64,000 nt of DNA from Corynebacterium comes (GTDB lineage Bacteria; Actinomycetota; Actinomycetes; Mycobacteriales; Mycobacteriaceae): assembly GCF_009734405.1 (NCBI RefSeq), contig NZ_CP046453.1:62001-126000 (forward strand), read 5' to 3'. The position numbers and the translations under genes were made by a program. This document shows positions 3,578-20,560 of this stretch, piece after piece. The notes under the pieces are model-generated. The model was not told the origin of the DNA. It ran no database searches and was given only the letters and a program-made list of their open reading frames with translations. The stretch's first letter is position 1, and the number at the start of each line of letters is the position of its first letter.

Positions 3578-5399
3578 TGGTGGCTGCCTCCGGGGCGGTC
3601 ATCTCGCTGGCCCAGTCGATGGAGAAGGACAGTGCGGCAGCGCGCGGTGCAGCTTCGTTGACGGCCTCGAAGTCGACGACCACGACGCCGTTGTCCTCGG
3701 CGTACCGGTTCCACTTCTCCTCCAGTTCCCTGGCGATGTCCGGATGTTCGGAAATGACATCCTTGGTCTCGCCCGGGTCTTCGGCCAGGTTGTACAGGGC
3801 GTACCCGCCGGTGCCGCCCATGGGCTCAGGCGTGAAGATCAGTTTCCAGTCGCCGGAGCGGTAGGAGCGGTGGCCGAAGTGCTCCCAGCCGAACTCGTCC
3901 TCTCCGATGGTCTCCGAGGTGCCCTCCAGTAGCGGCCGGGCGGAATCGCCCAGGAGATTGCCGGCGGAGGCGAGATCCGCCCCCGCGTACTCGGCGAAGG
4001 TGGGGTAGAGGTCGGTGATGTGGCCGAAGGTGTCGACGACGCGGTTCTCGCCGCCGCTTGTTGACGGTGCCTTGATGATCGCGGGCACCCTCGTTCCGCC
4101 CTCGAACAAGGTGTTCTTGGCATGGAAGAAGGGACCGGAGGAGACCTGGGCATTGGGCAGAGCCAGGGAGGGGAAGGAACCCTCGAGGCCGTAGGACTCG
4201 ACGTCGCCCACCAGCGGGTAGAACTCGTTGTGCCAGCCCTCGGTGCCGGGCCGGACATACAGCTCGTGGCTGTTGGCCGCCGGGCCGTTGTCGCTGGCCA
4301 CGACGATGAGGGTGTTGTCGTATTCGCCGGTCTCCTTGAGGTGGTCGATCATGCGGCCGACCTGCTCATCGGCCTCATGGATCGACGCGGCATAGACGGC
4401 CATCCGGTAGGCGAGGTCCTTGCGCTGCTCCTCGTTGAGCGTGTCCCACTCGGGCGTCTGCTCGGGCCAGCGGGTGGCGTTCTCCCCGTCGATGAGCCCG
4501 AGCTCCACCATGCGCTGGATGCGCTGGTCGCGCAGGTCGTTGTAGTTGTAGTCGTCGAGGTAGACGTCGAGATATTTTTCGATGAGCTCCTTGTTCTCCA
4601 CGTGCAGCGGATCATGGGGAGCGGTGTAGGCCAGGTAGCCGAAGAAGGGCGTGTCCGATTCCACGCTCTTGTCCACCATCTCGAGCATTTCATCGGTGTA
4701 GGAACGGGTGGCGAAAAAATCCTCCGGCAGCTGGTCGACCCGCTCACCGTTGCGCTCGTAGATGACGGTGTCGAACGGTTCCTGCGTCCGCTTGGAGAGG
4801 CGGTGGCCGTCGGAGAAATATGATGCGCCCGCATCGTAGAGCGTGAAGTTCTCGTCGAAACCAGTGTCCTGCGGGGTCTGACCCTCACCTTCCCCGAGGT
4901 GCCACTTGCCCACCTGGTAGGTGTCGTACCCGGTGTCACCCAGCAGCTCGGCGATGCCGGTGAACTCCCCCTCCAGGCTGCCCTTGTAGCCCGGGGTGGT
5001 CTGCGGCACGCCGGGCGGGGTGAGGTTCTCCATGGAACCCAGGCCGACCTGGTGGGGATCCTGCCCGGTCATCAGAGCGGCCCGGGTGGGGGCGCACAGC
5101 GGGTAGGCGTGGAAGTTGGTGAACTGGGTACTTTCCTTGGTCAGCGCATCGATGTTCGGAGTCTCCGCCTCACCGCCGTAGGCGCCGAGATCGGAATAGC
5201 CGAGGTCGTCGAGGAGCACCATCATGATGTTGGGCTGCTCCTGCGCTTCTGCGGCAGAGGAGGCTGATGACGACCGGGAACTCGTGGCGGTCGAGGTGCT
5301 TCCGCACGCGACGAGAGTGGCGCTGAGCAACACGGAGGTGCCCAGAGCCAGGCCAGCCAGTGCCCTTCGGGCGGGAGAGTTCTTAGGCGAGAGTTTCAT
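3570..5399 (-). CDS. Secreted lipoprotein arylsulfatase, cysteine type
   Basis: A 609-residue alkaline-phosphatase-fold sulfatase that hydrolyses sulfate esters outside the membrane. The start at 5399 was chosen because it puts a lipoprotein signal peptide first: positive residues, a hydrophobic stretch and lipobox LVAC with Cys32. A Ser/Thr/Ala-rich linker follows. The metal-binding DDLGYSD motif is at residues 64-70 and the sulfatase signature LCAPTRAALMTG places the modifiable cysteine at 102. VGKWHLGEGEG and the SDNGP metal site are also present. The motif CxPTR fits activation by the FGE encoded immediately downstream, which overlaps by 8 bp. FGE acts in the cytoplasm or during export, so co-expression makes sense. 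The natural sulfate ester cannot be told; a role in sulfur scavenging is inference. Confidence 0.92.
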   Translation of the reverse strand: MKLSPKNSPARRALAGLALGTSVLLSATLVACGSTSTATSSRSSSASSAAEAQEQPNIMMVLLDDLGYSDLGAYGGEAETPNIDALTKESTQFTNFHAYPLCAPTRAALMTGQDPHQVGLGSMENLTPPGVPQTTPGYKGSLEGEFTGIAELLGDTGYDTYQVGKWHLGEGEGQTPQDTGFDENFTLYDAGASYFSDGHRLSKRTQEPFDTVIYERNGERVDQLPEDFFATRSYTDEMLEMVDKSVESDTPFFGYLAYTAPHDPLHVENKELIEKYLDVYLDDYNYNDLRDQRIQRMVELGLIDGENATRWPEQTPEWDTLNEEQRKDLAYRMAVYAASIHEADEQVGRMIDHLKETGEYDNTLIVVASDNGPAANSHELYVRPGTEGWHNEFYPLVGDVESYGLEGSFPSLALPNAQVSSGPFFHAKNTLFEGGTRVPAIIKAPSTSGGENRVVDTFGHITDLYPTFAEYAGADLASAGNLLGDSARPLLEGTSETIGEDEFGWEHFGHRSYRSGDWKLIFTPEPMGGTGGYALYNLAEDPGETKDVISEHPDIARELEEKWNRYAEDNGVVVVDFEAVNEAAPRAAALSFSIDWASEMTAPEAATNG

Positions 5400-5835
5400 G
5401 TGAATTTCATCTTTCAGGTCGCGGAAGGAAAGACCAGCCTTTGGCGGTCCAGCTTGGTTTGTCAGCCCTCGCGGGCTGAGTCGGTGGAACTGGGGCCGGT
5501 TCCAGTTGTGAAGCGAACGACGTAACTCCGGACTAGTGAAAAACTCGTACATTCAGGACATCAGAGTTTTCGCTTCGGGGGAGTGGATTTCCTGTGCCTC
5601 CCGCAGTGGCCGGTCGAGCTGCCGGCCCCTGGCATTGGCCGCCTGGGACTGGAGGGCACCACGCCTGGTGCCGGTTCCGGTTCGAGCGTGCCCCCTCGGA
5701 AAAGGGCGCCTTCTTAAGGGGTCGGATGGCTCATGCACGGAGGGGAACTGCGAAAATGCCTCTTGAGGGCTGGGGTCAGGTAATCCGGAGAGCGTGAGAT
5801 GGGGATGCTGTCACTGCCGATGCAGTGGACACGAT

Positions 5836-6322: not shown

Positions 6323-6877
6323 CTATCGATCCATGATCTTGGTCCGCGCCGCCTGTCCCTTGGGGGACTGCATGAGCTTGTCCAGGAGTGCGATCAGGAC
6401 ATTGCGCTCGATGTCGGTTAGTCCGTCGGACCACTGTCCCTCGAGGACGTGGTGGTCGTCGAAGGCTGCCGAGATGTAGTCGGCCCCCTCGGTGGACAGC
6501 TCGATGACCACTGCCCGGCCGTCATTGCTGGATTTCCGTCTGGTCACCAGGCCCTCCTTCTCCAACTGGCCGGTGAGGTTTGAAACCTGTGAACGCCTCA
6601 TGCCCGTAACTGTCGCCAGTTGATTGGAGGGGATAGCCCCGTACATCCAGAGTGCGAACAGGAACCGGAATATCGCCCACGAATGACCCTTGGGGCGGTG
6701 GACGGCTTCTTCGATGTCGTTTGAAACGAGGCGCGCTGCGCGATCGAGGGAAATGATGAGCTGGTTCGCCTCCACATCAGCGTTCGGCTTCTTCTCCGGC
6801 AGCGTTTCTTTCGCCATCCGCACCATCGCCCAGAAGTCGAGATCGGCGGGGTTCACGGTTGAGCTGTCATCTTTCAA
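6323..6877 (-). CDS. MarR-family transcriptional regulator
   Basis: A 184-residue winged-helix protein. The DNA-binding core reads IPSNQLATVTGMRRSQVSNL and continues with a wing containing RKSSNDGRAVVIELSTEG, the usual DxR wing tip of MarR proteins, flanked by dimerisation helices at both ends. A good ribosome site (GAAAGGGAAAAG) precedes the ATG at 6877. It is transcribed away from the nine-gene catabolic operon that begins at 7397. HpaR, the known repressor of homoprotocatechuate meta-cleavage operons, is also MarR-type and the first operon gene is HpaB-like, so control of that operon is the most likely job. The effector is unknown but is probably the aromatic substrate or a hydroxylated intermediate. 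Confidence 0.87.
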   Translation of the reverse strand: MKDDSSTVNPADLDFWAMVRMAKETLPEKKPNADVEANQLIISLDRAARLVSNDIEEAVHRPKGHSWAIFRFLFALWMYGAIPSNQLATVTGMRRSQVSNLTGQLEKEGLVTRRKSSNDGRAVVIELSTEGADYISAAFDDHHVLEGQWSDGLTDIERNVLIALLDKLMQSPKGQAARTKIMDR

Positions 6878-7396
6878 GGCTTTTCCCTTTCCTGGCAGGG
6901 ACCTGGCCTCGTCCCGACGGTCTGATGTCCATGGTAGTTATCCCCGGGAGGGGGCAGGACAACCCATCCTCTGCCGTGTCGGGGCGTGCGCCTGAAGGCA
7001 ATTCACGCCGTGTTCCAGCACGGTCAGGGAAAGGGTTCTCGCCCCCGAATGGGGGTGGTTTATGCTGCGGCGCCAAAGAATTTTTCGAGCAGGGGCCGCC
7101 CAATAATGATTTCCAAAGTGAACTATATCGCACCAGCAAGGGGCCGTATTTTCATGTTGGCTAATTGTGCAAAGAATTGATTGCCATATAGGCGGGGTCG
7201 AGATGTGGCGTAGGGCGATCGCCCGTTCCTATTGCCTGGATCACTACCGCTACGTAGCGTGATGGACACCACAGGGAAGGTCGACGCAGTCAAGTGACCC
7301 GGTGGGAAACATGACCAGGAAAACCCGAGTGGCCTGCATCAATATGAGAATGTGCAGGCTGGGAGGGTGGTAGTTCATCCCGAAGGAGCCATCAAA
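6878..7396. other. Divergent promoter region between marR and the catabolic operon
   Basis: This 519-bp gap holds no convincing gene. It must contain both the marR promoter and that of the plus-strand operon. Short frames through it have no family resemblance. Near the operon it carries two perfect 12-nt palindromes (listed separately) and a possible promoter: TTGCCT (7232-7237), 17 bp, TAGCGT (7255-7260). The start of hpaB is preceded by CGAAGGAGCC, a strong ribosome site. Confidence 0.5.
7213..7263. promoter_or_regulatory. Paired palindromes, candidate operator of the catabolic operon
   Basis: GGGCGATCGCCC (7213-7224) and CGCTACGTAGCG (7248-7259) are both perfect 12-nt palindromes, 23 bp apart. 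The second is flanked by ATCAC (7240-7244) and GTGAT (7259-7263) and would overlap the -10 region of the possible promoter at 7232-7260, where a repressor would block transcription. The core GCTACGTAG is repeated at 5836. Confidence 0.45.
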
Positions 7397-8944
7397 ATGA
7401 GCAAGGACTTCATCCCTTTCACTGGCCAGGAGTACCTGGACAGCCTCAACGATGACCGTGAAGTGTGGATCTACGGCGAGCGGGTGGAGAATGTCACCGA
7501 GCATCCGGCGTTCCGAAACTCCGCCAGAATGATTGCGCGAATGTACGATGCGCTTCATGATCCGGCGCGAAAGGACATCCTGACCGTCCCCACTGAATGG
7601 GGTGGCTACACCCACCGCTTCTTCCGTGCCGCCGAGAGCGCCGAGGAGCAGCTCGCATCCCGCGACGCCATCGCCGAGTGGCAGAAGATCGCCTGGGGCT
7701 GGATGGGCCGTTCCCCCGACTACAAGGGCTGCTTCCTGGGCACACTGGGAGCAAACGCCGAGTTCTACCGCGGCTATGAGGACAACGCCCGCAACTGGTA
7801 CCGCAAGGCGCAGGAGAAGACCTACTACATCAACCACGCCATCATGAACCCGCCCGTCGACCGCGGTTCGGGCCCGGATGCCGGCAAGGACGTCTTCATC
7901 CGCGTGACCAAGGAGGATGAGAACGGCATCTACGTCACCGGCGCAAAGGTCGTGGCCACGGGTTCCGCCCTGACGCACTACACTTTCGTCGGCCACGTGG
8001 GCCAGGTCGCCATCCAGGACCCGGCGTACTCCCCGGTGTTCATCATGCCCACCAACTCCCCGGGCGTGAAGCTCCTGTGCCGCGTCTCCAACGAGCAGCG
8101 CGCAGCCGTCCTGGGCAGCCCCTTCGATTACCCGCTCTCCTCCCGCCTCGACGAGAACGACGCCATCCTCGTCCTGGACAACGTGTTCGTCCCGTGGGAG
8201 AACGTCTTCATCCACAACGACCTTGAGCAGGCCAACCGCTACAACATCCACTCCGGCTACCTTGAGCGGGCCTCTCTCCACGGCTGCACCCGCTTCGCGG
8301 TGAAGATGGACTTCCTCGTCGGTCTGCTGACCAAGGCACTCGAGGTTACCGGCGCGGACCAGTTCCACGGCGTGAAGTCCCAGCTAGGCGAGGTCATCGC
8401 CTGGCGCAACACCTTCTGGGCGCTTTCTGACGCCATGGCAAAGTCCGCCGTGCCGTGGAAGGACGGGATGATCCAGCCGGATCCCCAGCACGCCGGCGCC
8501 TACCGGGTGATGAACCAGCTGGCCATGCCGAAGATCAAGAACATCATCGAGCAGATCGTCGCCTCCGGTCTGATCTACCTCAACTCCCACGCGGTGGACT
8601 TCCAGACCCCCGAGATCCGTGGCTACCTGGACACCTACCTCCGCGGTTCCGACGGCATCGACTCCGTCGAGCGCGTCAAGGTGATGAAGATGCTCTGGGA
8701 CGCCATAGGCACCGAATTCGGCTCCCGCCACGAGCTCTACGAGATCAACTACATCGGTTCCAACGACGTCACCCGCCAGACCAACCTCTTCGGAGCCATG
8801 GGCAACGGAACCCTGCAGTACTGCAAGGACTTCGCCCAGGCCGCGATGGACGAGTACGACCTCGACGGCTGGACCGTTCCGGATCTGGTCAACAACGACG
8901 ACGTCAGCGTCCTGAAGTCCCGTTCACTCGCGAATCTGGTCTAG
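7397..8944 (+). CDS. HpaB-type FADH2-dependent aromatic hydroxylase
   Basis: A 515-residue protein of the 4-hydroxyphenylacetate 3-monooxygenase large-subunit family, which uses reduced flavin from a partner reductase to hydroxylate phenolic rings in the cytoplasm. The family opening (FTGQEYLDSLNDDREVWIYG) is clear and the acyl-CoA-dehydrogenase-like fold continues to the end (GSRHELYEINYIGSN). The ATG at 7397 follows GAAGGAG; an earlier ATG at 7352 adds an unrelated 15 residues. A flavin reductase is encoded downstream at 14608. As first gene of the operon it probably carries out ring ortho-hydroxylation before extradiol cleavage by the next gene product. Relatives act on 4-hydroxyphenylacetate, phenol, chlorophenols and pyridine derivatives, so the substrate cannot be read from sequence alone. 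Confidence 0.88.
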   Translation: MSKDFIPFTGQEYLDSLNDDREVWIYGERVENVTEHPAFRNSARMIARMYDALHDPARKDILTVPTEWGGYTHRFFRAAESAEEQLASRDAIAEWQKIAWGWMGRSPDYKGCFLGTLGANAEFYRGYEDNARNWYRKAQEKTYYINHAIMNPPVDRGSGPDAGKDVFIRVTKEDENGIYVTGAKVVATGSALTHYTFVGHVGQVAIQDPAYSPVFIMPTNSPGVKLLCRVSNEQRAAVLGSPFDYPLSSRLDENDAILVLDNVFVPWENVFIHNDLEQANRYNIHSGYLERASLHGCTRFAVKMDFLVGLLTKALEVTGADQFHGVKSQLGEVIAWRNTFWALSDAMAKSAVPWKDGMIQPDPQHAGAYRVMNQLAMPKIKNIIEQIVASGLIYLNSHAVDFQTPEIRGYLDTYLRGSDGIDSVERVKVMKMLWDAIGTEFGSRHELYEINYIGSNDVTRQTNLFGAMGNGTLQYCKDFAQAAMDEYDLDGWTVPDLVNNDDVSVLKSRSLANLV

Positions 8945-8959
8945 GAGGAGAGCACAACC

Positions 8960-9895
8960 ATGGCACGAGCAGTGGAATGCGCCCAGGTGTCGTACGCGGC
9001 ACCGGACCTGGAGGAGGCGGAGCGTTTCCTCACCGCCTTCGGATTCGCCCGCATCCCGGAGAGCACCGACGAGGTCCTCTACATGCGCGGCACCAACGAT
9101 CAGCATCACATTCACGTGACGCATCTGGCGGAGAAGCAGCGTTTCCTCGGCGCGACCATCGAGGTGGAGAGCCGCGCTGACCTGGAGGAACTCGCTGCGC
9201 TGGAGGGATCCTCTGAGATCACGGAATCGGAGGAGCCCGGCGGGGGACAGGTCGTGCTCATGCACACTCCCGACGGTATTCCGATCCGGGCCATTCACGG
9301 CCGCGCCAAGGCCGAGCCCCTGGAGGACCGCGAGCCCTTCCGGTTCAACAACCTCAGCGATAAGCAGCGCGTCGGCGACTCGGTCCGCATCAAGCAGGGC
9401 CCGTGCACCGTCAACCGCCTGGGGCACTTCGTCCTCCACGTGAGCAACCACGACGAGACTGTCGCCTGGTTCAAGGAACGCTTCAACTTCCTGGACTCCG
9501 ACTACTTCGTCCCGCCGGGGGAGGAGGGCCCGATCGTGGGTACCTTCCTGCGGCTTGATCGTGGGGACGAGCTCGTCGACCACCACTTCATGCTCGTCCT
9601 CCAGTCCGACTGGGTGGGAGTTCACCACTCCGCCTTCGAGGTCCTGGACCTGGATGCCGTGATGTCCGCGCACGACCACCTCATCGCCGAGGGCTTCACC
9701 TCCGACGTCGGAGTCGGCCGGCATCTGCTCGGAAGCCAGATCTTCGACTACTGGAAGGATCCCTTCGGTTTCCGGATCGAGCACTACACCGACGGTGACG
9801 TGGTCAACGCCGATCATGTCCCCACCAGGTTCAATGGCACCGCCAGTGACACCACCCAATGGGGTAACCGTCCGCCGCTGGAGTTCTTCCAATGA
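8960..9895 (+). CDS. Extradiol (meta-cleavage) dioxygenase, VOC superfamily
   Basis: This 311-residue protein has two vicinal-oxygen-chelate modules, the architecture of type I extradiol dioxygenases. The likely Fe(II) or Mn(II) ligands are His156 in RLGHFVLHVSNH, His222 or His223 in VHHSAFEVLDLD, and Glu274 in FRIEHYTDGD; spacing resembles actinobacterial homoprotocatechuate 2,3-dioxygenase. It would insert O2 next to a catecholic diol or aminophenol-like pair made by the upstream hydroxylase, giving a muconic semialdehyde. The ATG follows GGAGGAGAGCACAACC. Its last codons overlap the next gene by 4 bp (ATGA). Residues 1-120 form the non-catalytic module. Confidence 0.88.
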   Translation: MARAVECAQVSYAAPDLEEAERFLTAFGFARIPESTDEVLYMRGTNDQHHIHVTHLAEKQRFLGATIEVESRADLEELAALEGSSEITESEEPGGGQVVLMHTPDGIPIRAIHGRAKAEPLEDREPFRFNNLSDKQRVGDSVRIKQGPCTVNRLGHFVLHVSNHDETVAWFKERFNFLDSDYFVPPGEEGPIVGTFLRLDRGDELVDHHFMLVLQSDWVGVHHSAFEVLDLDAVMSAHDHLIAEGFTSDVGVGRHLLGSQIFDYWKDPFGFRIEHYTDGDVVNADHVPTRFNGTASDTTQWGNRPPLEFFQ

Positions 9896-10596
9896 CAATC
9901 AGCAACGAAACCCGCGCCCATCTGCAGCAGGCCGGCACACCGAATGTGGCGAACCGACTCCTCAGGAGAGGTTTCCGCAACGTGGTCATGCACGGCATTG
10001 CACCCCTGAAGCAGGACCAGCCCAAGCTCATCGGGGAGGCCTTCACGCTCCGGTTCATCCCGGCACGGGAAGACCTTGACTCGATGAAGAACTACGGGCT
10101 GGAGAGCAACCTGCATCGCCGCGCCATCGAGGAATGCCCCCCGGAGAAGGTGCTGGTCATCGACGCTTTCGATGACACCAGGGCATCTGCGATGGGTGAC
10201 ATGATGGCCCGGCGCCTGGCGCATCGGGGGGCTGCCGGGGTGGTCACCAACGGTGGCTTCCGCGACGCCGGCGGCATCCTCGAGACGGGATTGCCGTGCT
10301 ACCACCGTCAGTCGGCCGTCCCTGCCACCCCGATCCACCTGCACCCGATCGCCATTGACGAGCCCGTCGGGGTGGGCGGAGTGGCGGTGTATCCCGGTGA
10401 CGTCATCTTCGGCGACGACGACGGTGTGGTGGTCATCCCCGCTGATGTCGCCGCAGAGGTTGCCGCCGAGGCCGCCGACGACGCAGCGTACGAAGTCTTC
10501 GCCGCCGAGAAGATAAACCAGGGGAGCACGCTCTTCGAGGTCTTCCCGGCGACCGAGGCCAGCTACCGAGAATTCAACGAGCAAAGGAATCAGTGA
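9892..10596 (+). CDS. RraA-like / HMG-CHA aldolase family protein
   Basis: A 234-residue member of the RraA/methyltransferase-like fold. Enzymes of this family are class II pyruvate aldolases (4-hydroxy-4-methyl-2-oxoglutarate or 4-carboxy-4-hydroxy-2-oxoadipate) with oxaloacetate decarboxylase side activity; others are RNase E inhibitors or unknown. The core GVVTNGGFRDAGGI contains the Arg-Asp pair used for substrate and metal binding, and GDDDGVVVIP is the usual C-terminal block. The acidic residue often found two or three positions after RD is glycine here, so aldolase activity is not certain. Position directly after the ring-cleavage dioxygenase, with a 4-bp overlap, suggests a lower-pathway lyase that yields pyruvate. 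Confidence 0.78.
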   Translation: MTISNETRAHLQQAGTPNVANRLLRRGFRNVVMHGIAPLKQDQPKLIGEAFTLRFIPAREDLDSMKNYGLESNLHRRAIEECPPEKVLVIDAFDDTRASAMGDMMARRLAHRGAAGVVTNGGFRDAGGILETGLPCYHRQSAVPATPIHLHPIAIDEPVGVGGVAVYPGDVIFGDDDGVVVIPADVAAEVAAEAADDAAYEVFAAEKINQGSTLFEVFPATEASYREFNEQRNQ

Positions 10597-10599
10597 ATC

Positions 10600-11028
10600 A
10601 TGGACAACCTCATACTCAGCGCAGAGTCCCTGGAGAAGCTGGTCCACGAAGCGGACATCCGTGACGAGGACTGGCTCGACTTCCCGGAGTACGGCTTCAA
10701 GCAGTACTTCCTGCACAAGAACCCGGAGACCGGCGCCTCCATCGCCCTGCTCAGGTACGAGAAGGGCGGGAACATCCCCGTCAAGCACACCCACGCCTCG
10801 AATCAGTTCATGTACTGCCTGGAGGGCGACTACGAGTACACCGACTCGAACCTCCGGCTGAAGCCAGGCTCCTTCTACATGAACCCGAAGGATCACCCGC
10901 ACGGCCCGACGCTCGCCCACGAGCCCAGCCTCCTCATCGAGATCTACGACGGGCCGCACTACTACGAAAAGCCCGAGTACCACACCGATGAGACCATCGG
11001 TGACTTCATCGCCGACGAGAAGAACTGA
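10600..11028 (+). CDS. Cupin-domain protein
   Basis: A 142-residue single-domain cupin. Motif 1 is KHTHASNQFMYCLEGDYEY (around residues 65-83), giving a His-x-His pair and a glutamate, and motif 2 is PKDHPHGPTL with one or two further His, so a mononuclear metal site is likely. Tyr and acidic residues are abundant near the C terminus (YDGPHYYEKPEYH). Small cupins in aromatic pathways serve as dioxygenases, isomerases or decarboxylases. Here it lies between the aldolase-like and aldehyde dehydrogenase genes, with gaps of 3 and 11 bp, so it is surely co-transcribed. The sequence does not indicate which reaction it performs. Confidence 0.8.
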   Translation: MDNLILSAESLEKLVHEADIRDEDWLDFPEYGFKQYFLHKNPETGASIALLRYEKGGNIPVKHTHASNQFMYCLEGDYEYTDSNLRLKPGSFYMNPKDHPHGPTLAHEPSLLIEIYDGPHYYEKPEYHTDETIGDFIADEKN

Positions 11029-11039
11029 GGAAACAGCAC

Positions 11040-12593
11040 ATGACCACCGCAATCAAGCAGCGTTTCGACACCGCCGAGGTTCTGCAGAAGTTCGGCCTGG
11101 ACCAGATCCACCCCGGCACCTACTCCTCCGCCACCGGCTGGGTCGGCGGAGACGACCGACCGGTCATTGACGCCGAGTGCCCCGCCGACGGCGAGATCGT
11201 CGCCCAGATCTCCGCCTCGGAGGAGTCCGACTGGGAGGCCGTCATCGCCAACGCCGTCGCGGTGCAGAAGAAGTGGCGGGACGTGCCCGCCCCGCGTCGC
11301 GGTGAGTTCATCCGCCGTATCGGTCAGCTCATCGAGGAGAACCACGATGATCTCGCCGCCATCGTCGCCCTGGACACCGGCAAGTCCATCGCGGAGTCGA
11401 AGAGCGAGCTCAAGGAGTCCATCGACATGGCAGGCCTGGCAGCCGGCCAGTCCCGCATGATGTACGGCTACACCCAGCAGTCGCAGCGTCCGGACCACCG
11501 CATGTACGACCAGTACCATCCGCTCGGCGTCGTCGGCATCATCTCCGCCTACAACTTCCCGGCCAACGTGTGGGCCCAGAACGGTTTCCTGGCCGCCATC
11601 GGCGGCAACACCGTCATCTGGAAGCCGAGCCCCAAGGTTCCGCTCACCGCCATCGCCCTCCAGCAGCTGGTCAACCAGGCTGCAGAGGAGTTCGACGCCC
11701 AGGGTGTGTTCTCCCTGTACCTGCCGGCCGAGAACGCGGCCGCCGAGCGGGTCATCACCGACCTCCGCGTCGATCTGGTCTCCTTCACCGGTTCCACCCA
11801 GGTCGGCCAGCTCGTCTCCGAGACGGTCTCCCAGACCCTGGGCCGCCGTTACCAGCTGGAGTGCTCCGGCAACAACGCCTGCATCGTCGATGAAACCGCT
11901 GATCTGGAGCTGGCTGCCCGCGCCCTCACCTTCGGCACCGTCGGCACCACCGGACAGCGTTGCACCTCCACCCGCCGGGTCATCGCCCACGTGAGCATCG
12001 TCGACAAGCTCGTCGAGCTCATGGCGGAGGCCTTCGCGCAGATCCCGATCGGTGACCCGCGCGATCCGGGCACGATGGTCGGCCCGCTCATCGACAGCTC
12101 CGCGGTCGAGGACTTCAAGCTGGTCATCGAGAAGGCGGCGGCCGACGGCGCGCAGATCGCCTACGGCGGCAACGTCATCGACCGCCCCGGCCTGTACGTC
12201 GAGCCGACGATCCTGACCGGCGTCGACCCGAAGTCGTCCACCGCGCAGGAGGAGACCTTCGTCCCGATCGTCTCCGTCCTCACCTACGAGACCCTCGACG
12301 AGGCGATCCGCATCCACAACGACGTCGCCCAGGGCCTGGCATCGGGAATGCACTCGACCAACCTCACCAACATCGAGACCTTCCTGTCCGCCCGCGGCTC
12401 CGACTGCGGCATCGTGCGCATCAACATGGGCACCACCGGCGCCGACATCGGCGCAGCCTTCGGCGGCGAGAAGGAGACCGGCGGCGGCCGCACCGCCGGC
12501 TCGGACTCCTGGAAGGGCTTCATGCGCCGCCAGTCCGTCTGCGTCAACTGGGGCGGCAAGAGCCCCTGGGACAACCAGATCACCTTCAACTGA
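11040..12593 (+). CDS. Aldehyde dehydrogenase, probably semialdehyde-oxidising
   Basis: A 517-residue NAD(P)+-dependent aldehyde dehydrogenase. The cofactor loop is FTGSTQVGQL, the general base is Glu274 in LECSGNN, and the nucleophile is Cys308 in GTTGQRCTSTRR. Full length for the family. The motif surrounding the nucleophile and the IISAYNFPANVW segment resemble the ALDH7-like branch that acts on semialdehydes. In a meta-cleavage operon the expected substrate is the ring-opened semialdehyde, as for 2-hydroxymuconate or 2-aminomuconate semialdehyde dehydrogenases. GAGGAAACAGC upstream is a reasonable ribosome site. Confidence 0.88.
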   Translation: MTTAIKQRFDTAEVLQKFGLDQIHPGTYSSATGWVGGDDRPVIDAECPADGEIVAQISASEESDWEAVIANAVAVQKKWRDVPAPRRGEFIRRIGQLIEENHDDLAAIVALDTGKSIAESKSELKESIDMAGLAAGQSRMMYGYTQQSQRPDHRMYDQYHPLGVVGIISAYNFPANVWAQNGFLAAIGGNTVIWKPSPKVPLTAIALQQLVNQAAEEFDAQGVFSLYLPAENAAAERVITDLRVDLVSFTGSTQVGQLVSETVSQTLGRRYQLECSGNNACIVDETADLELAARALTFGTVGTTGQRCTSTRRVIAHVSIVDKLVELMAEAFAQIPIGDPRDPGTMVGPLIDSSAVEDFKLVIEKAAADGAQIAYGGNVIDRPGLYVEPTILTGVDPKSSTAQEETFVPIVSVLTYETLDEAIRIHNDVAQGLASGMHSTNLTNIETFLSARGSDCGIVRINMGTTGADIGAAFGGEKETGGGRTAGSDSWKGFMRRQSVCVNWGGKSPWDNQITFN

Positions 12594-12634
12594 CCCGCAC
12601 ACCCCCAACTCCACTTCAGAAGACAGGAATCACC

Positions 12635-13054
12635 ATGAGCACCGCCACCACCATGAAGAAGACCCGCATCATCTCCCCCGACGTCCGCGAGCCCGCCGAG
12701 CGCATGTGGTCCAACTGCCTGCGTATCGACGACCAGATCTTCGTCTCCGGCCTGACCGCCCGCGGTTCGGACGGCCAGACCATCGACGGTGACAACGAAT
12801 TCGACCAGGCCAAGGTGGTGTTCACCAAGATCAAGAACCTGGTCGAAGAGGCCGGCGCCCAGATGGACGACGTGGTCAAGATGACCATCTACGTCACGAA
12901 CATGGCAGAGAACCACCAGGTCTGGAAGGCGCGCCAGGAGTTCTTCACCGGCAACTTCCCGGCCTGCACCCTCGTTGAAGTTTCCGCGCTGGCCAAGCCC
13001 GAGATCCTCCTGGAGATCGAGGCCATCGCCATTGCCGGGGCGTCCTCCAAGTAA
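12635..13054 (+). CDS. RidA/YjgF-family protein, possible aminomuconate deaminase
   Basis: This 139-residue protein has the RidA (YjgF/YER057c) fold: an FVSGLTARGSDG strand-turn near residue 36, a central helix, and VEVSALAKPEILLEIEAIAI at the end. Archetypal RidA has an Arg in a PARxxVxV motif that binds imine acids; here the same place reads PACTLVEV, so this is not a canonical RidA. 2-Aminomuconate deaminases of 2-aminophenol and nitrobenzoate pathways are RidA-fold proteins lying next to a semialdehyde dehydrogenase, which is exactly this gene's position. Release of ammonium from a ring-derived enamine acid is therefore the leading inference. Confidence 0.82.
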   Translation: MSTATTMKKTRIISPDVREPAERMWSNCLRIDDQIFVSGLTARGSDGQTIDGDNEFDQAKVVFTKIKNLVEEAGAQMDDVVKMTIYVTNMAENHQVWKARQEFFTGNFPACTLVEVSALAKPEILLEIEAIAIAGASSK

Positions 13055-13091
13055 CAACCCCCCACCCCTCACACAAAGACGAGGACATAAC

Positions 13092-14564
13092 ATGTCTCTT
13101 CGCTATCCGGACGGCAACGCCGTCGCCACCGAATCCATCGACAGCTCGCTCGCGGCGGCCGCAGAGGACCACGCACTGGTGCGTGTCCCCCAGGAAGAGC
13201 GGAAGAGCGGCTGGTTCCTGGCACTGAGCCCGGTTTCCGTGGCCACCGCGCTGGTCATCTTCGCCATCGGCGGCTTCGCCGTCGTCCTCGCCGGCTTCAA
13301 GATCGGTCTGGTCACCGGACTGGTTATCGCGGTCATCGGAGCCGTGCTGGGCAAGACCTTGTCCATGATCGCCTTCCAGTCGGGGGTCTCCAGTACCATC
13401 ACCTCGCGGTTCTTCGGTTTCGGCCAGAAGGGATCCGTCTTCGGGTCGGCGATCTTCGCCTTCATGATCATCGGCTTCCTTGCCATGGAGTCAGCGCTCC
13501 TCTACGAGGGCACTCTGCTCATGTTCGGCTGGTCCGACAACTGGACAACGCGGATCCTGCTCTACGGAGCTCTCACCCTCGCCTGGATCGCACTGGCGAT
13601 CTTCGGTCTCAAGGTCGCACTGCGCTCGTCCCTGATCATGACGGTGATCACCCTGGCCGTCGCGATCTACATGGTCATCTACATCTACGTCATCCAGGGC
13701 AACAACCCGATGGATGTCTTCAACTACCCCGGCGTCGTCGAGGGTGGCTTCTGGGCGAAGTTCACCGCGGCCTTCGGCGTCATGGGCGCCACGGCCGGAA
13801 CCATCTCCCTGGTCACCATGGACTTCGCCCGCTATGCCCGCACCCAGCGGGATGTGACGATCCTCGCGATGGCTGGGCCGCTCGTCCAGAACATCCTCAT
13901 GGTGGTCCTCGGCTCGCTCATCGTCATCGGCGGCATGCCCCAGGTCATCGACTACCTCATGGCCCGCGACGCCGGTCTCACCCCGGAGGCGGCCGCCGCA
14001 GCTGCCGGCGGGTTCGTGATGAGCAACACCGGCGCCTTCTTCGTCATCTTCGCCGGCTGGATCGGCTTCCTCACCATCTACGCCTCGCAGGCGAAGGCAC
14101 AGGCGATCAACGCCTACTCCGGCTCATTGTCTCTGGTGAACATGATCGACGCCCTCACCGGCTGGAGTCCGGGCCGTGCCGTCATGGTGGTCGTCGCCAA
14201 CATCATCGGGCTGATGATGATCGGTGGCGGAATCCTCCACCAGTTCGCCGCCTACCTGGCCTACCTGGGCTGCTGGACCCTGGCGATGAGCGCGATCATG
14301 ATCGCCGACTACTTCTTCGTCCGCCGTCACATCAAGGTCCACGACTTCGACCGGGTGGAGAACTGGAACTGGGCCGGTCTGGTCACGCTCGTCATCGCCA
14401 GCGTCATCGGCATGCTGCTGATGTTCTCCGGCATCTTCTCCCTCGGTTTCATCGTCTCCGGCGCCCTCGCGCTCTTCCTCTACCCGGCACTCCGGAAGGC
14501 TCTTCCGGAAGGCACCGGGACCACCTTCACATCCAAGTCCGAAGCAATGGCCGAGGCGTACTAG
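13092..14564 (+). CDS. NCS1-family permease (nucleobase/hydantoin/pyridine-type substrate)
   Basis: A 490-residue membrane transporter with about twelve hydrophobic helices and the NCS1 (cytosine-purine, hydantoin, allantoin, pyridoxine) pattern, for example AFQSGVSSTITSRFFGFGQK and a late DYFFVRRHIKVHDF. A hydrophilic 45-residue N terminus precedes helix 1. The ATG at 13092 follows ACGAGGAC. NCS1 carriers import nitrogen heterocycles by sodium or proton symport; none is known to prefer simple phenols. Its place in the middle of the operon therefore points to a nitrogen-containing ring as pathway substrate. Confidence 0.85.
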   Translation: MSLRYPDGNAVATESIDSSLAAAAEDHALVRVPQEERKSGWFLALSPVSVATALVIFAIGGFAVVLAGFKIGLVTGLVIAVIGAVLGKTLSMIAFQSGVSSTITSRFFGFGQKGSVFGSAIFAFMIIGFLAMESALLYEGTLLMFGWSDNWTTRILLYGALTLAWIALAIFGLKVALRSSLIMTVITLAVAIYMVIYIYVIQGNNPMDVFNYPGVVEGGFWAKFTAAFGVMGATAGTISLVTMDFARYARTQRDVTILAMAGPLVQNILMVVLGSLIVIGGMPQVIDYLMARDAGLTPEAAAAAAGGFVMSNTGAFFVIFAGWIGFLTIYASQAKAQAINAYSGSLSLVNMIDALTGWSPGRAVMVVVANIIGLMMIGGGILHQFAAYLAYLGCWTLAMSAIMIADYFFVRRHIKVHDFDRVENWNWAGLVTLVIASVIGMLLMFSGIFSLGFIVSGALALFLYPALRKALPEGTGTTFTSKSEAMAEAY

Positions 14565-14607
14565 CGCCCGTCCACCCCACCGCGATCAAGAATCTGAGGT
14601 GCCCGTC

Positions 14608-15177
14608 ATGACCGTCCCAACCATCTGGTCCCGCGAAATCCATGAGCCTATCTCCGAGGCAACCACGCTGACGTCCGAGGAAGCCATCCCGATGCAGCAC
14701 GACCCCCGGCAACTGCGCAACACCCTCGGGAACTTCGCCACCGGAGTCACCGTCATCACCTACGAATCTGAAGGCGCCTACTACGGTGTCACCGTCAACT
14801 CCTTCACCTCCGTGTCGATGGACCCGCCCCTCGTCCTGGTCTCCCTCATGCGGTCCTCGCGTGCCCTGACCTACCTGATGGAGCGTCCCTTCGCCGTCAA
14901 CATCCTGGGTGCGGACCAGCTGCCCACGGCCCTCCAGTTCGCCGGCAAGCCTCAGGACGGTCACCAGATCGAGTGGGTGACCGACGAGACCGCTCCGCGT
15001 CTCAACGGTTCGCTGGCCTATTTCCAGTGCACCCCCTGGGCCGGCCATGACGGCGGCGACCACATCCTGGTCCTTGGCAAGGTGCTCTCCTACGGCCAGC
15101 GTGATGACGAAGATCCCCTCGTGTTCTACCGAGGTCAGTGGAAAGAACTGGCCGAAGTAGCAGCGGACGACAAGTGA
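14608..15177 (+). CDS. Flavin reductase (HpaC-like) for the two-component monooxygenase(s)
   Basis: This 189-residue protein matches the flavin-reductase-like split-barrel domain: LRNTLGNFATGVTVIT, then YGVTVNSFTSVSMDPPLVLV, FAVNILGADQ, and the C-terminal GGDHILVLGKVL. These enzymes reduce FAD or FMN with NAD(P)H and hand it to an oxygenase by diffusion. ATG 14608 with GAGGTG seven bases upstream was preferred to the GTG at 14599. The N-terminal 30 residues before the domain are extra. It should feed the HpaB-like hydroxylase at 7397, and perhaps also the acyl-CoA-dehydrogenase-fold oxygenase immediately downstream. Confidence 0.88.
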   Translation: MTVPTIWSREIHEPISEATTLTSEEAIPMQHDPRQLRNTLGNFATGVTVITYESEGAYYGVTVNSFTSVSMDPPLVLVSLMRSSRALTYLMERPFAVNILGADQLPTALQFAGKPQDGHQIEWVTDETAPRLNGSLAYFQCTPWAGHDGGDHILVLGKVLSYGQRDDEDPLVFYRGQWKELAEVAADDK

Positions 15178-15204
15178 ATCAGTAGAAGACCAAAGGAGTA
15201 AGTC

Positions 15205-16392
15205 ATGACCACCAGCATCCACCCCACGCTTGACGTCAACAATGTCCTGGCCGCCATCGACAACATCTACGATCTTCTGCAGGCCGAAGCGGAGGACAGC
15301 GAGCGGCTCCGCCGCCCGACCCCGGCCGTGCAGCAGGCCCTCAAGGAGAGCGGTGTCTTCCAGCTTCTCCTTCCGGTCGAATACGGCGGCGCTGAAGCCG
15401 GTCCGCTGGAAATCATCGAGGTGATCAGTCGCCTGTCGCGCGCAGACGGCTCCCTCGCCTGGCTCGCACGGGTGCTCACCTCCGAAACCGGGTACGCTGC
15501 GGCGTCGCTGCCGGAGGAGACGGCCCGCGAGCTCTTCGGTGGCGAGGACAAAGCGCTGGTGGCGGGACTTGCCTCCATGGACTTCTCCGGCACGGCCCGA
15601 CGGGTCGACGGCGGATACATCGTCGACGGGGAATGGCAGTACGTACCGGGACTCTCCATGGCCACCCACGTTGATCTCGGCGTCACGGTCGAGGAAACAG
15701 GGGAGCGGATCATCTGCGTCGTGCCGCGTTCTTCGCTACGCGTCACCGACAACTGGAAAATGCTCGGCCTGCTCTCGTCCGGCACTCTCGACTACAGCGC
15801 ATGGGAACTGTTCGTCCCGGACAATTACACCTTCCTGCCTGGGCCGGAGAACCTCAGGCGTGGTGCCGACATCCTTCGTCTGAGCCCCTCCGCGCTCGCT
15901 ACCCTCAATCAGGGAGCCTGGTCTCAGGGCGTTGGCGAGCGGATCCTCGATGAACTCAAGCAGCTGACCCAGGAAAACCGCGGGCACAGTGAGCGTGACG
16001 TCACCAGCGCGGAGTTCTACGCGGAGTTCGCACGTCACTACTCGCATGTGCGGGGAACGGGAGCGCTGCTCCGGGAGATCTGGGGTGAGGTGAACGACAA
16101 CCTGGAGCGCGGAACAAAGCCTGACGTCGAGCTGCAGACGATGATGCGACTCGCCGCGGCGCTGTCCACGCGGACTGTTCTGGAGATCAGCCATCTTGCC
16201 CACCGGTTCGCCGGTGCCAGTGTCATGCGGAATGGCGTACTCCAGCGCTTCTTCCGCGACGGCCACGCCGGAACGCAGCACCGCGGGACCGCGCACCTGG
16301 TGACCCAGCAGTGTGGCGAGATTCTCTCCGGCACCCTGCCGGAGGGTACGTACTGGGGCTTCTACGATCTGGTGGTCCCCGAGCCGGAATAA
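15205..16392 (+). CDS. Acyl-CoA-dehydrogenase-fold flavin monooxygenase (group D type)
   Basis: A 395-residue protein with acyl-CoA dehydrogenase fold: LLPVEYGGAEAGPLEIIEVI and ADGSLAWLARVL near the N terminus, a central beta domain (VDGGYIVDGEWQYVPGL), and a C-terminal RDGHAGTQHRGTAHLV followed by GEILSG. The catalytic Glu and CoA-binding features of true dehydrogenases are not obvious, and proteins of this shape next to a flavin reductase are usually group D monooxygenases such as DszC, HsaA or XiaF relatives. It would use FADH2 from the adjacent reductase. The operon thus has two flavin oxygenases and one reductase. This is the last gene before a strong terminator. Confidence 0.75.
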   Translation: MTTSIHPTLDVNNVLAAIDNIYDLLQAEAEDSERLRRPTPAVQQALKESGVFQLLLPVEYGGAEAGPLEIIEVISRLSRADGSLAWLARVLTSETGYAAASLPEETARELFGGEDKALVAGLASMDFSGTARRVDGGYIVDGEWQYVPGLSMATHVDLGVTVEETGERIICVVPRSSLRVTDNWKMLGLLSSGTLDYSAWELFVPDNYTFLPGPENLRRGADILRLSPSALATLNQGAWSQGVGERILDELKQLTQENRGHSERDVTSAEFYAEFARHYSHVRGTGALLREIWGEVNDNLERGTKPDVELQTMMRLAAALSTRTVLEISHLAHRFAGASVMRNGVLQRFFRDGHAGTQHRGTAHLVTQQCGEILSGTLPEGTYWGFYDLVVPEPE

Positions 16393-17930: not shown

Positions 17931-18743
17931 TTAGAAGTAGATGCCGAACTGGGAGAACCAGCCGACCGGGTCGACGGGACCGCTGCCGCTGGGGTGGATC
18001 TCGAAGTGAAGGTGCGAACCGGTGGAGAAGCCTTCGCTGCCCATGCCGGCGATCTGCTGGCCGGCGTAGACGCGCTCGCCGACCGACACGCCGAGGGTCG
18101 ACATGTGGCCGTAGACGGAGATGGAGCCGTCGTCGTGCTGGATGCGGATCCACTGGCCGTAGCCGGAGGCCGGGCCCGAGTTGATGACGGTGCCGTCCAT
18201 GATCGCGAGGATCGGGGTGCCGATCCCGTTGGCGATGTCGATGCCGGCGTGGAGCGTTCCCCAGCGTGGGCCGAAACCTGAGGTGAACGTGCCCTGGGCG
18301 GGGCTGACGACGGAGGCGGACTGTGCGACCAGCTGCACCTCGACTTCGGTGGCGGCGGCCTCGGCCTGGGCTGCTGCGGCGGCCTCGGCTTCTGCGGCGA
18401 CGGCAGCTGCGGCGGCCTCGGCCTCTGCCTGGGCTGCTGCGGCGCGCTCGGCAGTGAATTCGATGGCCTTGTTCAGCTGCTCGTCGAGGTGATCGACCGG
18501 CTTGATCTCGGGGACCGCCAGGATCTGCGGGGCAGCCTCCGCGGCGTCGGCCAGTGAGAGGTTGTCATCGCTGGCCAGCTCGTAGTTGATCTCTACGGCT
18601 TCGGTGGGGGCCTCGGGGGCTGCCTGCAGGGTTGCTGCGGCGGCTCCGCCGATACCTGCGGATGACACCACGCCTGCGGTGAGTGCCATGAGGGCGATGC
18701 GGTTGCGGGTTGATCGGCCGGTGGAGATCCTGCGGTACGACAT
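17931..18743 (-). CDS. Secreted M23-family peptidoglycan endopeptidase
   Basis: About 270 residues: a signal peptide (RIALMALTAGVVSSAGIGGAAAA), a spacer, an alanine- and glutamate-rich coiled coil of about 50 residues (roughly 110-160), then an M23 LytM domain. Zinc-site motifs are HAGIDIANGIGTPI, GYGQWIRIQHDDG, YGHMS and GSHLHFEIHPSG, so the HxxxD and HxH metal ligands are present and the domain is probably active on cell-wall peptides. ATG 18743 is the start closest to the signal peptide; a GTG at 18833 would add 30 polar residues, and neither has a good ribosome site. The M23 domain and coiled coil suggest a cell-division or envelope-remodelling hydrolase. Confidence 0.85.
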   Translation of the reverse strand: MSYRRISTGRSTRNRIALMALTAGVVSSAGIGGAAAATLQAAPEAPTEAVEINYELASDDNLSLADAAEAAPQILAVPEIKPVDHLDEQLNKAIEFTAERAAAAQAEAEAAAAAVAAEAEAAAAAQAEAAATEVEVQLVAQSASVVSPAQGTFTSGFGPRWGTLHAGIDIANGIGTPILAIMDGTVINSGPASGYGQWIRIQHDDGSISVYGHMSTLGVSVGERVYAGQQIAGMGSEGFSTGSHLHFEIHPSGSGPVDPVGWFSQFGIYF

Positions 18744-19149
18744 TGCAGTCGACGGCTGAGTGTTGGTGAGAATGGGAAGACTCCTGTCGTGCTGCCCGCC
18801 AGGCGGACTGGTCCGTGTTACTTTCGTGAGCACATCGTGACCGTTTCGTTATTGATTTGAGTGACGGTACTGATTCGATGTGATGTATGCAAGTCGGACA
18901 TTCAATGGAGGGAGTAGTTGGCCTTACTCCGAGGCCCCCGGGCCCCTCGATCCAGTTCCCTTCCAGCTCAGGCCTGGTATTTCTTTAGGTCCGGGGGAGG
19001 GAAATCGCACGGAACTCACAGGGTTCTTCAGGGGAAACGCATCGACCGGCAGGGCTGTCCGAGGGGCCCGTTTTGTTTAGTCACGTGACCTGACCTGGTC
19101 TGAAGGAATCCGCTGTGACCTGCCCTCCTGCCGCACGGGAGCAGGCACG
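18744..19149. other. Intergenic region, no supported gene
   Basis: Between the start of the M23 gene and the PhoX terminator there are about 400 bp without a supportable gene. The part next to the M23 gene, 18760-18900, must hold its promoter and possibly a long leader. The remainder is unremarkable and I see no repeat or RNA gene in it. Confidence 0.4.
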
Positions 19150-19216: not shown

Positions 19217-20560
19217 TCAGAGGGCGCCATTGCCCCACGGGCCGGTGATGGCGTAGGTGATGCCGGGGTTCTGCACGTTGAAGAACAGGACCTTGCCGTC
19301 CGGGCTGAAGGTGGCGCCGGCCACCTCGCTGTTGTTGTCGGAGTTCAGCTCGGCCAGGTCGAAGATCTGGCCGTCGAGGGTCACGCCGCGCAGGAGGTTC
19401 TTGCCGGCGCCGTCCTCGCACAGCACGAGGGCGTTGGTGTTCGGGGAAATGCAGAGGTTGTCGGGGCTCTGCAGCACCTCGGGGTCGGTGGACTCGTAGG
19501 TCAGCTCGAGCTGTCCACCCGAGTTCCCGCGCGGGGTGTAGCGCCAGACCTGACCCAGGCCGGCGTCGCCGCCGCTGGTGGAGACGATGTAGATCGAACC
19601 CTCGCCGTACCAGGCACCCTCGAGGCGGGCGAAGAGCGCGCCACCCTGCTCGTGGCCCTGCTTGAACACGGCGAGAGAATCCGTGCTGTCCGGATCGGGG
19701 TCGTTGATGTCGACCCACTCGACCGGCAGGGGCTTGCCGGCGCGCTGGTTGAAGCGGGTGTCGTACTGGGACCGGGCCTTGATGGCCATCATCTGCAGCT
19801 TGCCGCCGGCGGTCAGGTTGTTGCGGTCGTTCGGGATGAAACGGTAGAAGCCGGAGGTGCCGCGGTCCTCGGTCTCGTAGACGATGCCGGTCTGCGGGTC
19901 GATGGCGACAGCCTCGTGGGTGAAGCGGCCCATCTCCTTGATCGGCACGGCGTCGACGGGGGAGGTGGCGTCGGCCGGGACCTCGAAGACGTAACCGTGC
20001 GGGTGCTCGACGTTGAGGCCCGTGAAGGTCTCCTCACAGGTAAGCCAGGTGCCCGCCGGGGTGGGTCCACCGGCACAGTTGCGGATGGTGCCGGTCAGCG
20101 AGGGGTAGGCGGCAACCAGTTCCATCTTGTCCGGGTCGAAGACCAGGTTGGTGGTGCCGCCGGCCGCGTTCGGGTCGTAGGCTTTGTCGCCGAAGGCCGC
20201 ACCCTGGGACTTCTCATGGTTGCGCACCAGGTTGATCATGCCGTTGGCGCCGGCGAAGGCGGCCATGCCGTCGTGCATGTTGGGGGTCGGGGTCCCGTCA
20301 CTCATCGGGGTGCCGGCCTGGCCGAAGGCCACGTAGCTGAAGCCGGCGGGCAGGAGAAGCTCGCCGCCCGGTGCCGGCTGCAGCGGGCCGTAGCCACCGT
20401 TGTTCGGTGCCTGCATGGTGTCCACGCCGCGCCCACGGCCCTGTGCGGCCTGGGCGGTGTTGCCCATCAGGGCGGCGAGGACGCCCGCAGCGCCCAGCAC
20501 GCCGCCGGCCTTCAGGAATCCGCGGCGCCCTACGGCACTCTTCTGCTCTGGTGTCGTCAT
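19217..20560 (-). CDS. phoX: PhoX-family (DUF839) secreted phosphatase, Tat-exported
   Basis: A 447-residue protein. The twin-arginine signal RRGFLKAGGVLGAAGVLAAL is at residues 12-31 with an A-rich cleavage region after it. The mature part matches the PhoX/DUF839 beta-propeller: NLVRNHEKSQG, TWLTCEETFTG, GRFTHEAVAIDPQTGIVYETEDRG, and SPDNLCISPNTNALVLCEDG, which hold the acidic and Glu ligands for the iron-calcium cofactor of PhoX alkaline phosphatases. Tat export fits folding with metals in the cytoplasm. It probably releases phosphate from organic esters outside the cell. It stands alone, with a terminator after it. Confidence 0.85.
   Translation of the reverse strand: MTTPEQKSAVGRRGFLKAGGVLGAAGVLAALMGNTAQAAQGRGRGVDTMQAPNNGGYGPLQPAPGGELLLPAGFSYVAFGQAGTPMSDGTPTPNMHDGMAAFAGANGMINLVRNHEKSQGAAFGDKAYDPNAAGGTTNLVFDPDKMELVAAYPSLTGTIRNCAGGPTPAGTWLTCEETFTGLNVEHPHGYVFEVPADATSPVDAVPIKEMGRFTHEAVAIDPQTGIVYETEDRGTSGFYRFIPNDRNNLTAGGKLQMMAIKARSQYDTRFNQRAGKPLPVEWVDINDPDPDSTDSLAVFKQGHEQGGALFARLEGAWYGEGSIYIVSTSGGDAGLGQVWRYTPRGNSGGQLELTYESTDPEVLQSPDNLCISPNTNALVLCEDGAGKNLLRGVTLDGQIFDLAELNSDNNSEVAGATFSPDGKVLFFNVQNPGITYAITGPWGNGAL

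Follow-up and report, generated by a model that had tools for sequence, protein, structure and literature searches.

A nine-gene operon of Corynebacterium comes with an extradiol dioxygenase that may serve the breakdown of a nitrogen-bearing aromatic ring

Introduction

The degradation of 4-hydroxyphenylacetate through homoprotocatechuate (the hpa pathway) employs HpaB with a flavin reductase, a type I extradiol dioxygenase, an aldehyde dehydrogenase (ALDH) and a MarR regulator. Proteins of the same kinds are encoded in and beside a nine-gene operon at positions 7397-16392 of the window, the whole 64,000-nucleotide stretch of the Corynebacterium comes genome analysed here (assembly GCF_009734405.1, contig NZ_CP046453.1, positions 62,001 to 126,000, forward strand). 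The operon differs from the hpa pathway in that it has no HpaF-, HpaG-, HpaH- or HpaI-type gene, an ALDH7-like enzyme takes the place of HpaE, and a cupin, a Rid-fold protein, an RraA-like protein and an NCS1-like permease are extra.

In 2-aminophenol pathways, Rid and FAH proteins occur alongside a semialdehyde dehydrogenase, and the dioxygenase of the amn pathway is of the LigB type. The operon shares with amn a Rid-fold protein adjoining a semialdehyde dehydrogenase; its Rid protein, however, lacks the arginine of the amn deaminase and its ALDH belongs to another family. In 2,4-dinitrotoluene degradation, DntD works with an FAH-family hydrolase, and we know of no cupin, Rid or ALDH7 protein in that lower pathway. 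Its likeness to the operon (DntD/DntG) consists of an annotation name carried by 3 of 120 dioxygenase relatives among the matches listed and of the FAH gene that lies nearby in 20 of the 27 close loci. The kpi locus of Arthrobacter sp. IN13, which serves 4-hydroxypyridine, has a flavin monooxygenase, a ring-opening dioxygenase, an FAH-family protein and a permease of the cytosine/purine/uracil/thiamine/allantoin family linked to hydroxypyridine uptake, according to the part of its description covered here (PMC7356986). It differs from the operon in its amidohydrolase-fold ring opener KpiC, its Pfam01494 entry enzyme and its alpha/beta hydrolase KpiB, and none of VOC, HpaB, RraA, cupin, ALDH7 or Rid was seen in that part (PMC7356986).

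An earlier reading made by a model from the letters and open reading frames (the sequence-only reading) knew of no described operon with this exact gene set. In agreement with this, the listings of the open-licence literature searched gave no description of the gene set or of the ring type, and no paper there named at least four of six families. An undescribed extradiol pathway is most likely. On balance, the operon probably encodes an aerobic and inducible pathway of the meta-cleavage type whose substrate is an aromatic ring bearing nitrogen; the most likely candidate is a hydroxylated N-heteroaromatic compound such as a hydroxypyridine or hydroxypyridine-carboxylate.

Results

The nine open reading frames at 7397-16392 are consecutive on the plus strand. 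The gaps between them range from -4 to about 127 bases, and the sole one of more than 50 bases, that of about 127, is directly 5' of the flavin reductase gene. No plus-strand terminator-like site was found within 7397-16392, the one listed being at 7039, upstream of the first gene. The nine genes are confirmed as a real operon, uninterrupted on the plus strand as the sequence-only reading had it. The family names in that reading were borne out by Pfam and NCBIfam with corrections: the ALDH is ALDH7-like, the permease is remotely NCS1, and the Rid protein is without the RidA arginine. Its second flavin oxygenase kept its family and was refined to a flavin monooxygenase of the acyl-CoA-dehydrogenase fold (HsaA/Rv3094c-like). 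None of the nine proteins reached an equivalog cut-off among the NCBIfam scores listed (for the ALDH, the best 25 of 44 families).

Related loci were sought with an alignment of 19 relatives of the VOC dioxygenase as the query, and the best 80 of 586 confirmed loci were compared. The close set consisted of 27 loci (L005-L031, VOC at least 45%) and the other 53 of the 80 served as the control. Gene presence was scored at bit-score thresholds chosen by the author, near-threshold matches being taken as scored. A gene counted as FAH if it scored more than 85 bits with at least one of three queries; since these are about 40% alike, more than one subfamily is included under that name. Some contigs are truncated, and little weight can be put on absences in L018, L019 and L030, whose contigs are short.

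A search for the same neighbourhood in other genomes had been proposed with the sequence-only reading, and it recovered all nine genes in the same order in seven of the 27 close loci (L005 and L007-L012, from Corynebacterium lemuris, Streptomyces and Rhodococcus); Arthrobacter L006 is without the second oxygenase. Over the close set, HpaB was found in 15 loci, a PhzS-like flavoprotein in 7, the molybdenum subunits CoxL1 and CoxL2 in 4 and 6, RraA in 24, the cupin in 23, ALDH7 in 19, Rid in 20, a second Rid in 8, FAH in 20, the flavin reductase in 13, the second oxygenase in 7, the NCS1-like permease in 9 and MarR in 1. At the same thresholds, the 53 control loci had FAH in 31 and HpaB in one (L074), and not one of them had any other gene of this list, including RraA, the cupin, ALDH7 and Rid; four of the 53 showed weak second-oxygenase matches (25-26%) under threshold. 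The recurrence of the nine genes against these controls indicates that their grouping is not due to chance. The core (VOC, RraA-like protein, cupin, ALDH7 and Rid) is also present in Pseudomonas, Paraburkholderia, Zoogloeaceae, Pandoraea and Variovorax. At locus L014, from Paraburkholderia sp. LEh10, the VOC gene is accompanied by those for HpaB and the flavin reductase, and no other core gene was found over 20 kb.

Exactly one of HpaB, the PhzS-like flavoprotein and CoxL1 was found in 26 of the 27 close loci, and none in L030, a 7.7 kb contig. Which of the three is present depends on the lineage. The PhzS-like enzyme, so named here, matches Pfam FAD_binding_3 and has as best solved relatives 2rgj and 3c96, labelled flavin-containing monooxygenase; it is accompanied by the second Rid in all seven of its loci. 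CoxL1 and CoxL2 are subunits of XDH-family molybdenum enzymes and in L027 are joined by FAD and 2Fe-2S partners. CoxL1 replaces HpaB in four alphaproteobacterial loci (L026-L028 and L031); its best NCBIfam match is XdhA (626.5 bits against a cut-off of 780), and 6-hydroxypseudooxynicotine dehydrogenase (278.9 bits) and quinoline oxidoreductase (275.4 bits) are among its more distant solved relatives. CoxL2 is nearest to the alpha subunit of glyceraldehyde dehydrogenase (608.9 against 790). CoxL2 and ALDH7 never occur in one locus, and L014 and L018 have neither. A VOC tree that covers the window and all close loci but L030 (26 of 27) accounts for the three kinds of entry enzyme with two changes, which means few evolutionary events and not 26 independent ones. 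The distribution across loci suggests an equivalent function for HpaB, the PhzS-like enzyme and CoxL1, and another for ALDH7 and CoxL2.

The putative hydroxylase misses the cut-off of the 4-hydroxyphenylacetate 3-monooxygenase (HpaB) model TIGR02310 (680.6 against 885.2 bits). Its nearest solved relatives are labelled chlorophenol-4-monooxygenase (4oo2, 643.3 bits) and 4-hydroxyphenylacetate 3-monooxygenase (614.2 bits). R105, Y109 and H147, aligned to 6qyh and 6eb0, are invariant in 17 of 17 sequences (the window, 15 loci and L074), and correspond to the Arg/Tyr/His phenol-binding triad of the HpaB-type flavin hydroxylase superfamily, in which the protein is placed. The loop that follows the T-x-Y motif of E. 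coli HpaB is not common to the operon protein, so a substrate other than that of E. coli HpaB is likely. The flavin reductase, whose sequence was analysed from base 14689, is presumed to be the partner of both oxygenases. The second of these has Rv3094c as its best solved relative.

The VOC protein falls far under the cut-off for homoprotocatechuate 2,3-dioxygenase (HpaD; TIGR02295, 82.1 against 321.4 bits). H156, H208, H223, H255, Y264 and E274 are invariant in alignments of 19 and of 27 sequences. By spacing to the BphC numbering, they are assigned as the 2-His-1-Glu iron ligands and the acid-base His and Tyr of type I (VOC) extradiol enzymes. The extradiol cleavage proposed in the sequence-only reading is supported.

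The ALDH falls below the NF050084 cut-off (730 bits) for L-piperidine-6-carboxylate dehydrogenase, a model passed in 17 of 61 genomes of the order, the host not among them. The hydroxymuconate-semialdehyde type is excluded by score (TIGR03216, 201.2 against 693.25 bits). Among solved structures, the ALDH is closest to 10fm, an aldehyde dehydrogenase of unspecified kind, and next to antiquitin and other ALDH7 proteins. Residue equivalence was set by spacing to the numbering in PMC11362210. E126, R307 and C308 are present in 20 of 20 sequences, and Gln180 stands where L-piperidine-6-carboxylate dehydrogenases have Trp. The protein thus has the features of the ALDH7 group, in which an Arg adjoins the catalytic Cys and a Glu and Arg pair with aminoadipate, as seen for human ALDH7A1 in the part of the source covered (PMC11362210). 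These features would suit a semialdehyde acid of six atoms whose chain is polar or carries nitrogen, and perhaps a nitrogen-free one too. The same part of the source reports weak oxidation of N-carboxyacyl aminoaldehydes by two plant ALDH7 enzymes (PMC11362210), and an N-oxalyl aldehyde substrate is therefore not favoured.

Activity of RidA requires Arg105/107 (PMC4433059), which is taken as the equivalent of Arg117 in the pocket of 2-aminomuconate deaminase (AmnE) of Pseudomonas AP-3 (PMC6742747), both sources being covered in part. None of the 24 Rid proteins examined (the window, 20 of the 27 loci and L091-L093) has Arg at this position, which is occupied by Cys, Ala or Ser; in the operon Rid it is Cys. 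The possibility was considered that the protein is an ordinary 2-aminomuconate deaminase; it was rejected since the arginine is missing, and the deamination by such a protein that had been proposed from the sequence is not supported in that form. The best solved match by phmmer is 2ig8, P. aeruginosa PA3499, and no paper in the open-licence literature searched named two of the five locus tags of this lead.

In the RraA-like protein, D103, R124 and D125, aligned with 3noj, are invariant in 25 of 25 sequences. D103-x20-R124-D125 corresponds to the LigK motif, D-x20-R-D, and the score against the HMG/CHA aldolase (LigK) model TIGR02798 is 60.8 bits against a cut-off of 304.5. The cupin has H63, H65, Q69 and H101 invariant in 27 of 27 sequences (the window, 23 loci and L091-L093), and its best solved relative is KdgF (E=5e-4); KdgF-like cupins have a His-His-Gln-His metal site, and the operon protein may be one of them. 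In three further actinobacterial loci (L091-L093), a cupin 51-53% identical lies beside Rid and FAH genes. Each of the three also has a relative of the same amidohydrolase and of the same Ldh_2 dehydrogenase, and two of them have an FAD monooxygenase and an SDR. The cupin-Rid-FAH trio may be a reusable lower-pathway module. These loci represent a different pathway with the same lower trio and consequently do not illuminate the substrate.

No FAH gene match was found in the window or in 16 kb of the C. lemuris locus, and the host genome has two FAH genes elsewhere. One of them (contig 1, near 814,800) is 49% identical to the FAH of the Streptomyces L007 cluster and lies beside a gentisate-1,2-dioxygenase-like gene (under cut-off) and a maleylpyruvate-isomerase-family gene. 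It is a guess that the FAH of this gentisate-like operon supplies the pathway step. The isomerase/decarboxylase/hydratase set noted as missing from the sequence alone is indeed missing from the operon, but a gene of the FAH family, the superfamily of some such enzymes, is present in 20 of the 27 loci and in those two copies in the host.

The permease is NCS1-like, but remote: it scored 38.5 bits against the TIGR00800 cut-off of 353.1 and had no Pfam match at E<=0.001. Nine related loci have it; the C. lemuris copy is 92% identical, and the identity of the remaining eight is 62-70%. The divergent MarR protein scored 36.1 bits against NCBIfam HpaR (cut-off 121.2) and is 74% identical in C. lemuris L005, the one related locus of 27 with this gene; LysR is upstream in its place in L006, L007 and L012. 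A comparison of the MarR-HpaB intergenic region (6878-7396) with L005 (3441-3895) revealed a block kept in both Corynebacterium genomes, including GCTAATTGTGCAAAG, which is a candidate operator or promoter. Perfect inverted repeats (7-10 bases, gap 0-11) were not found in this region.

The operon is rare in the genus and phylum samples scanned. Of 201 genomes of the genus, 3 have a VOC match at E<=1e-30, the host (2.887 Mb, two contigs) among them, and one of these matches is just 34% identical; at E<=1e-60, 1 of 396 genomes of the phylum has a match, the host itself. The operon's nearest named relative belongs to C. lemuris, with a VOC 92% identical. Recent transfer was considered on the basis of base composition and not adopted, as the operon genes (GC 0.606-0.673) do not contrast with the 18-64 kb region (0.636). 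The features are collected in Table 1.

Table 1. Features of the operon and its surroundings, in window positions.
Feature	Position	Strand	Evidence
MarR-family regulator, presumed repressor	6323..6877	-	PF01047 40.8 bits; divergent from operon
HpaB-type flavin-dependent ring hydroxylase, oxygenase component (putative)	7397..8944	+	PF11794/PF03241
VOC (type I) extradiol ring-cleavage dioxygenase (putative)	8960..9895	+	PF00903
RraA-like class II aldolase/decarboxylase-type protein	9892..10596	+	PF03737; subfamily PRK08245 261.8 bits, above 208
Single-domain cupin, possible metal-dependent tautomerase/hydro-lyase	10600..11028	+	PF12973/PF07883
ALDH7-like semialdehyde dehydrogenase	11040..12593	+	NF050084 587.8 bits, under 730
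Rid-fold (RidA/RutC-like) protein without Arg105 equivalent	12635..13054	+	PF01042; alignments to PDB Rids
Remote NCS1-type permease	13092..14564	+	NCBIfam PRK11017 46.8 bits, TIGR00800 38.5 bits, both under cut-off
Flavin reductase (FerA/HsaB/HpaC-like)	14692..15177	+	PF01613 120.3 bits; NF052639 132.7 bits, under 260
Acyl-CoA-dehydrogenase-fold flavin monooxygenase (HsaA/Rv3094c-like)	15205..16392	+	PF08028/PF02771; NF045629 117.5 bits, under 450
Sulfatase-family protein, upstream of operon	3570..5552	-	PF00884; lipoprotein-like signal by eye
M23 peptidase	17931..18833	-	
PhoX-type alkaline phosphatase	19217..20560	-	PF05787
2-keto-3-deoxygluconate permease (KdgT)	46708..47835	+	PF03812

Discussion

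XDH-family hydroxylases often hydroxylate N-heteroaromatic compounds next to the nitrogen, with exceptions such as furoyl-CoA and aldehydes. A nitrogen ring is favoured here because the XDH-family CoxL1 stands in for HpaB in four loci; the NCS1-like permeases and the Rid proteins point weakly to nitrogen too. These same three elements support the probable nitrogen-containing ring that the sequence-only reading had put forward; its single catabolic operon and its distinct gene set are supported as well, and the reading as a whole in part. The permease of the kpi locus, in the part of its description covered (PMC7356986), was counted on the same side. The proposed pathway is further backed by the joint inheritance of the core, by the single kind of entry enzyme in 26 of 27 loci, by the mutual exclusion of CoxL2 and ALDH7, by the aminoadipate-pairing Glu and Arg of the ALDH and by the invariant catalytic residues of the extradiol and HpaB enzymes.

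Several observations weigh against a nitrogen-bearing ring. Nothing in the operon scores above the cut-off of an equivalog model whose known substrate contains nitrogen. The CoxL swaps come from a single alphaproteobacterial clade together with L019 and L030, the entry label changing twice on the VOC tree. E126 and R307 of the ALDH are also found in 12 of 12 L-piperidine-6-carboxylate dehydrogenases compared (12 of the 17 above cut-off), so the pair is family-wide. Other points speak directly for a ring without nitrogen, a phenol or hydroxyquinol-type compound broken down in the manner of DntD with its FAH-family hydrolase, for which the permease and Rid would be incidental helpers. Among 120 VOC relatives in the matches listed, three are named 2,4,5-trihydroxytoluene oxygenase, an enzyme with a nitrogen-free substrate; an FAH gene is near VOC in 31 of 53 distant as well as 20 of 27 close loci; and the Rid protein is without the deaminase arginine. 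Among solved structures, CoxL1 is closest to 4-hydroxybenzoyl-CoA reductase (391.5 bits), which acts on a carbocycle, and to our knowledge the HpaB enzymes of known function have phenols as substrates. The NCS1 permease is present in no more than 9 of 27 loci, and in L013, L023, L026 and L031, which have none, the ABC transporter parts are of the branched-chain-amino-acid type in three and of the sugar type in one, not of nucleobase types. This main rival is nevertheless considered rather unlikely: it would have to accommodate a molybdenum enzyme of the XDH family where HpaB is absent, the permease in those nine loci, Rid in 20 of 27, and a second Rid wherever the PhzS-like enzyme occurs.

An aminophenol or aminocatechol ring would be opened to a 2-aminomuconate-semialdehyde-like acid, which ALDH7 would oxidise and Rid deaminate, with FAH and RraA finishing. 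The retained aminoadipate-binding Glu/Arg pair is consistent with such a route, as is the presence of Rid and FAH with a semialdehyde dehydrogenase. However, the deaminase arginine is missing, the nine proteins contain no LigB-type dioxygenase domain by Pfam, the TIGR03216 score is low and an XDH-family entry enzyme would have no obvious role, so that this explanation appears improbable. A variant homoprotocatechuate pathway, for which HpaB, the extradiol enzyme, the ALDH, the flavin reductase and a MarR protein distantly like HpaR could be cited, was rejected as very improbable, since HpaE (260.5 against 638.35) and HpaC (43.7 against 205.95), like HpaB-2 and HpaD above, are under their cut-offs and the loop after the T-x-Y motif is not shared. 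A kpi-type pyridine pathway was also rejected, there being no amidohydrolase-type ring opener among the nine proteins.

For the preferred nitrogen-bearing ring, we infer the substrate, the order of steps after cleavage and the roles of the cupin, Rid and RraA proteins from sequence comparison. The NCS1-like permease would import the compound, and HpaB, with reduced flavin from the flavin reductase, would hydroxylate it adjacent to an existing ring hydroxyl; a further hydroxyl may come from the acyl-CoA-dehydrogenase-fold oxygenase in some actinobacteria. The VOC dioxygenase would then convert the diol to a nitrogen-carrying six-atom semialdehyde acid. Ring opening would be followed by semialdehyde oxidation, then tautomerisation and C-N and C-C cleavage: the oxidation would be the work of the ALDH7-like enzyme, tautomerisation or hydrolysis of an enol or enamine may fall to the cupin and the Rid-fold protein, and an acylpyruvate-type FAH hydrolase (encoded off the operon, perhaps borrowed from the gentisate-like operon) together with the RraA-like aldolase/decarboxylase would yield central metabolites. 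The operon is probably under repression by the divergent MarR protein. Provided that the exchanged entry enzymes yield the same product, the carbon attacked should be reachable both by flavin monooxygenases, which act beside a hydroxyl, and by a molybdenum hydroxylase, which often acts beside a ring nitrogen. A carbon open to both makes a 2- or 3-hydroxypyridine-type compound a concrete first candidate.

A bolder proposal is made tentatively, namely that a type I (VOC) dioxygenase opens a dihydroxypyridine-type ring in an undescribed pathway that is rare but present in two phyla, with three unrelated entry oxygenases leading into one core. The pyridine-ring-opening dioxygenases discussed in the part of the kpi report covered are NicX, the LigB-type PydA and the amidohydrolase-type KpiC (PMC7356986); if the proposal is true, VOC would be a further fold beside these. 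The module logic would be that of one core with interchangeable entry and aldehyde-oxidising enzymes, and testable roles would be gained for the arginine-less Rid, the His-His-Gln-His cupin and the PRK08245-type RraA protein. The operon would then represent a new breakdown route for a nitrogenous aromatic compound, common to actinobacteria and proteobacteria.

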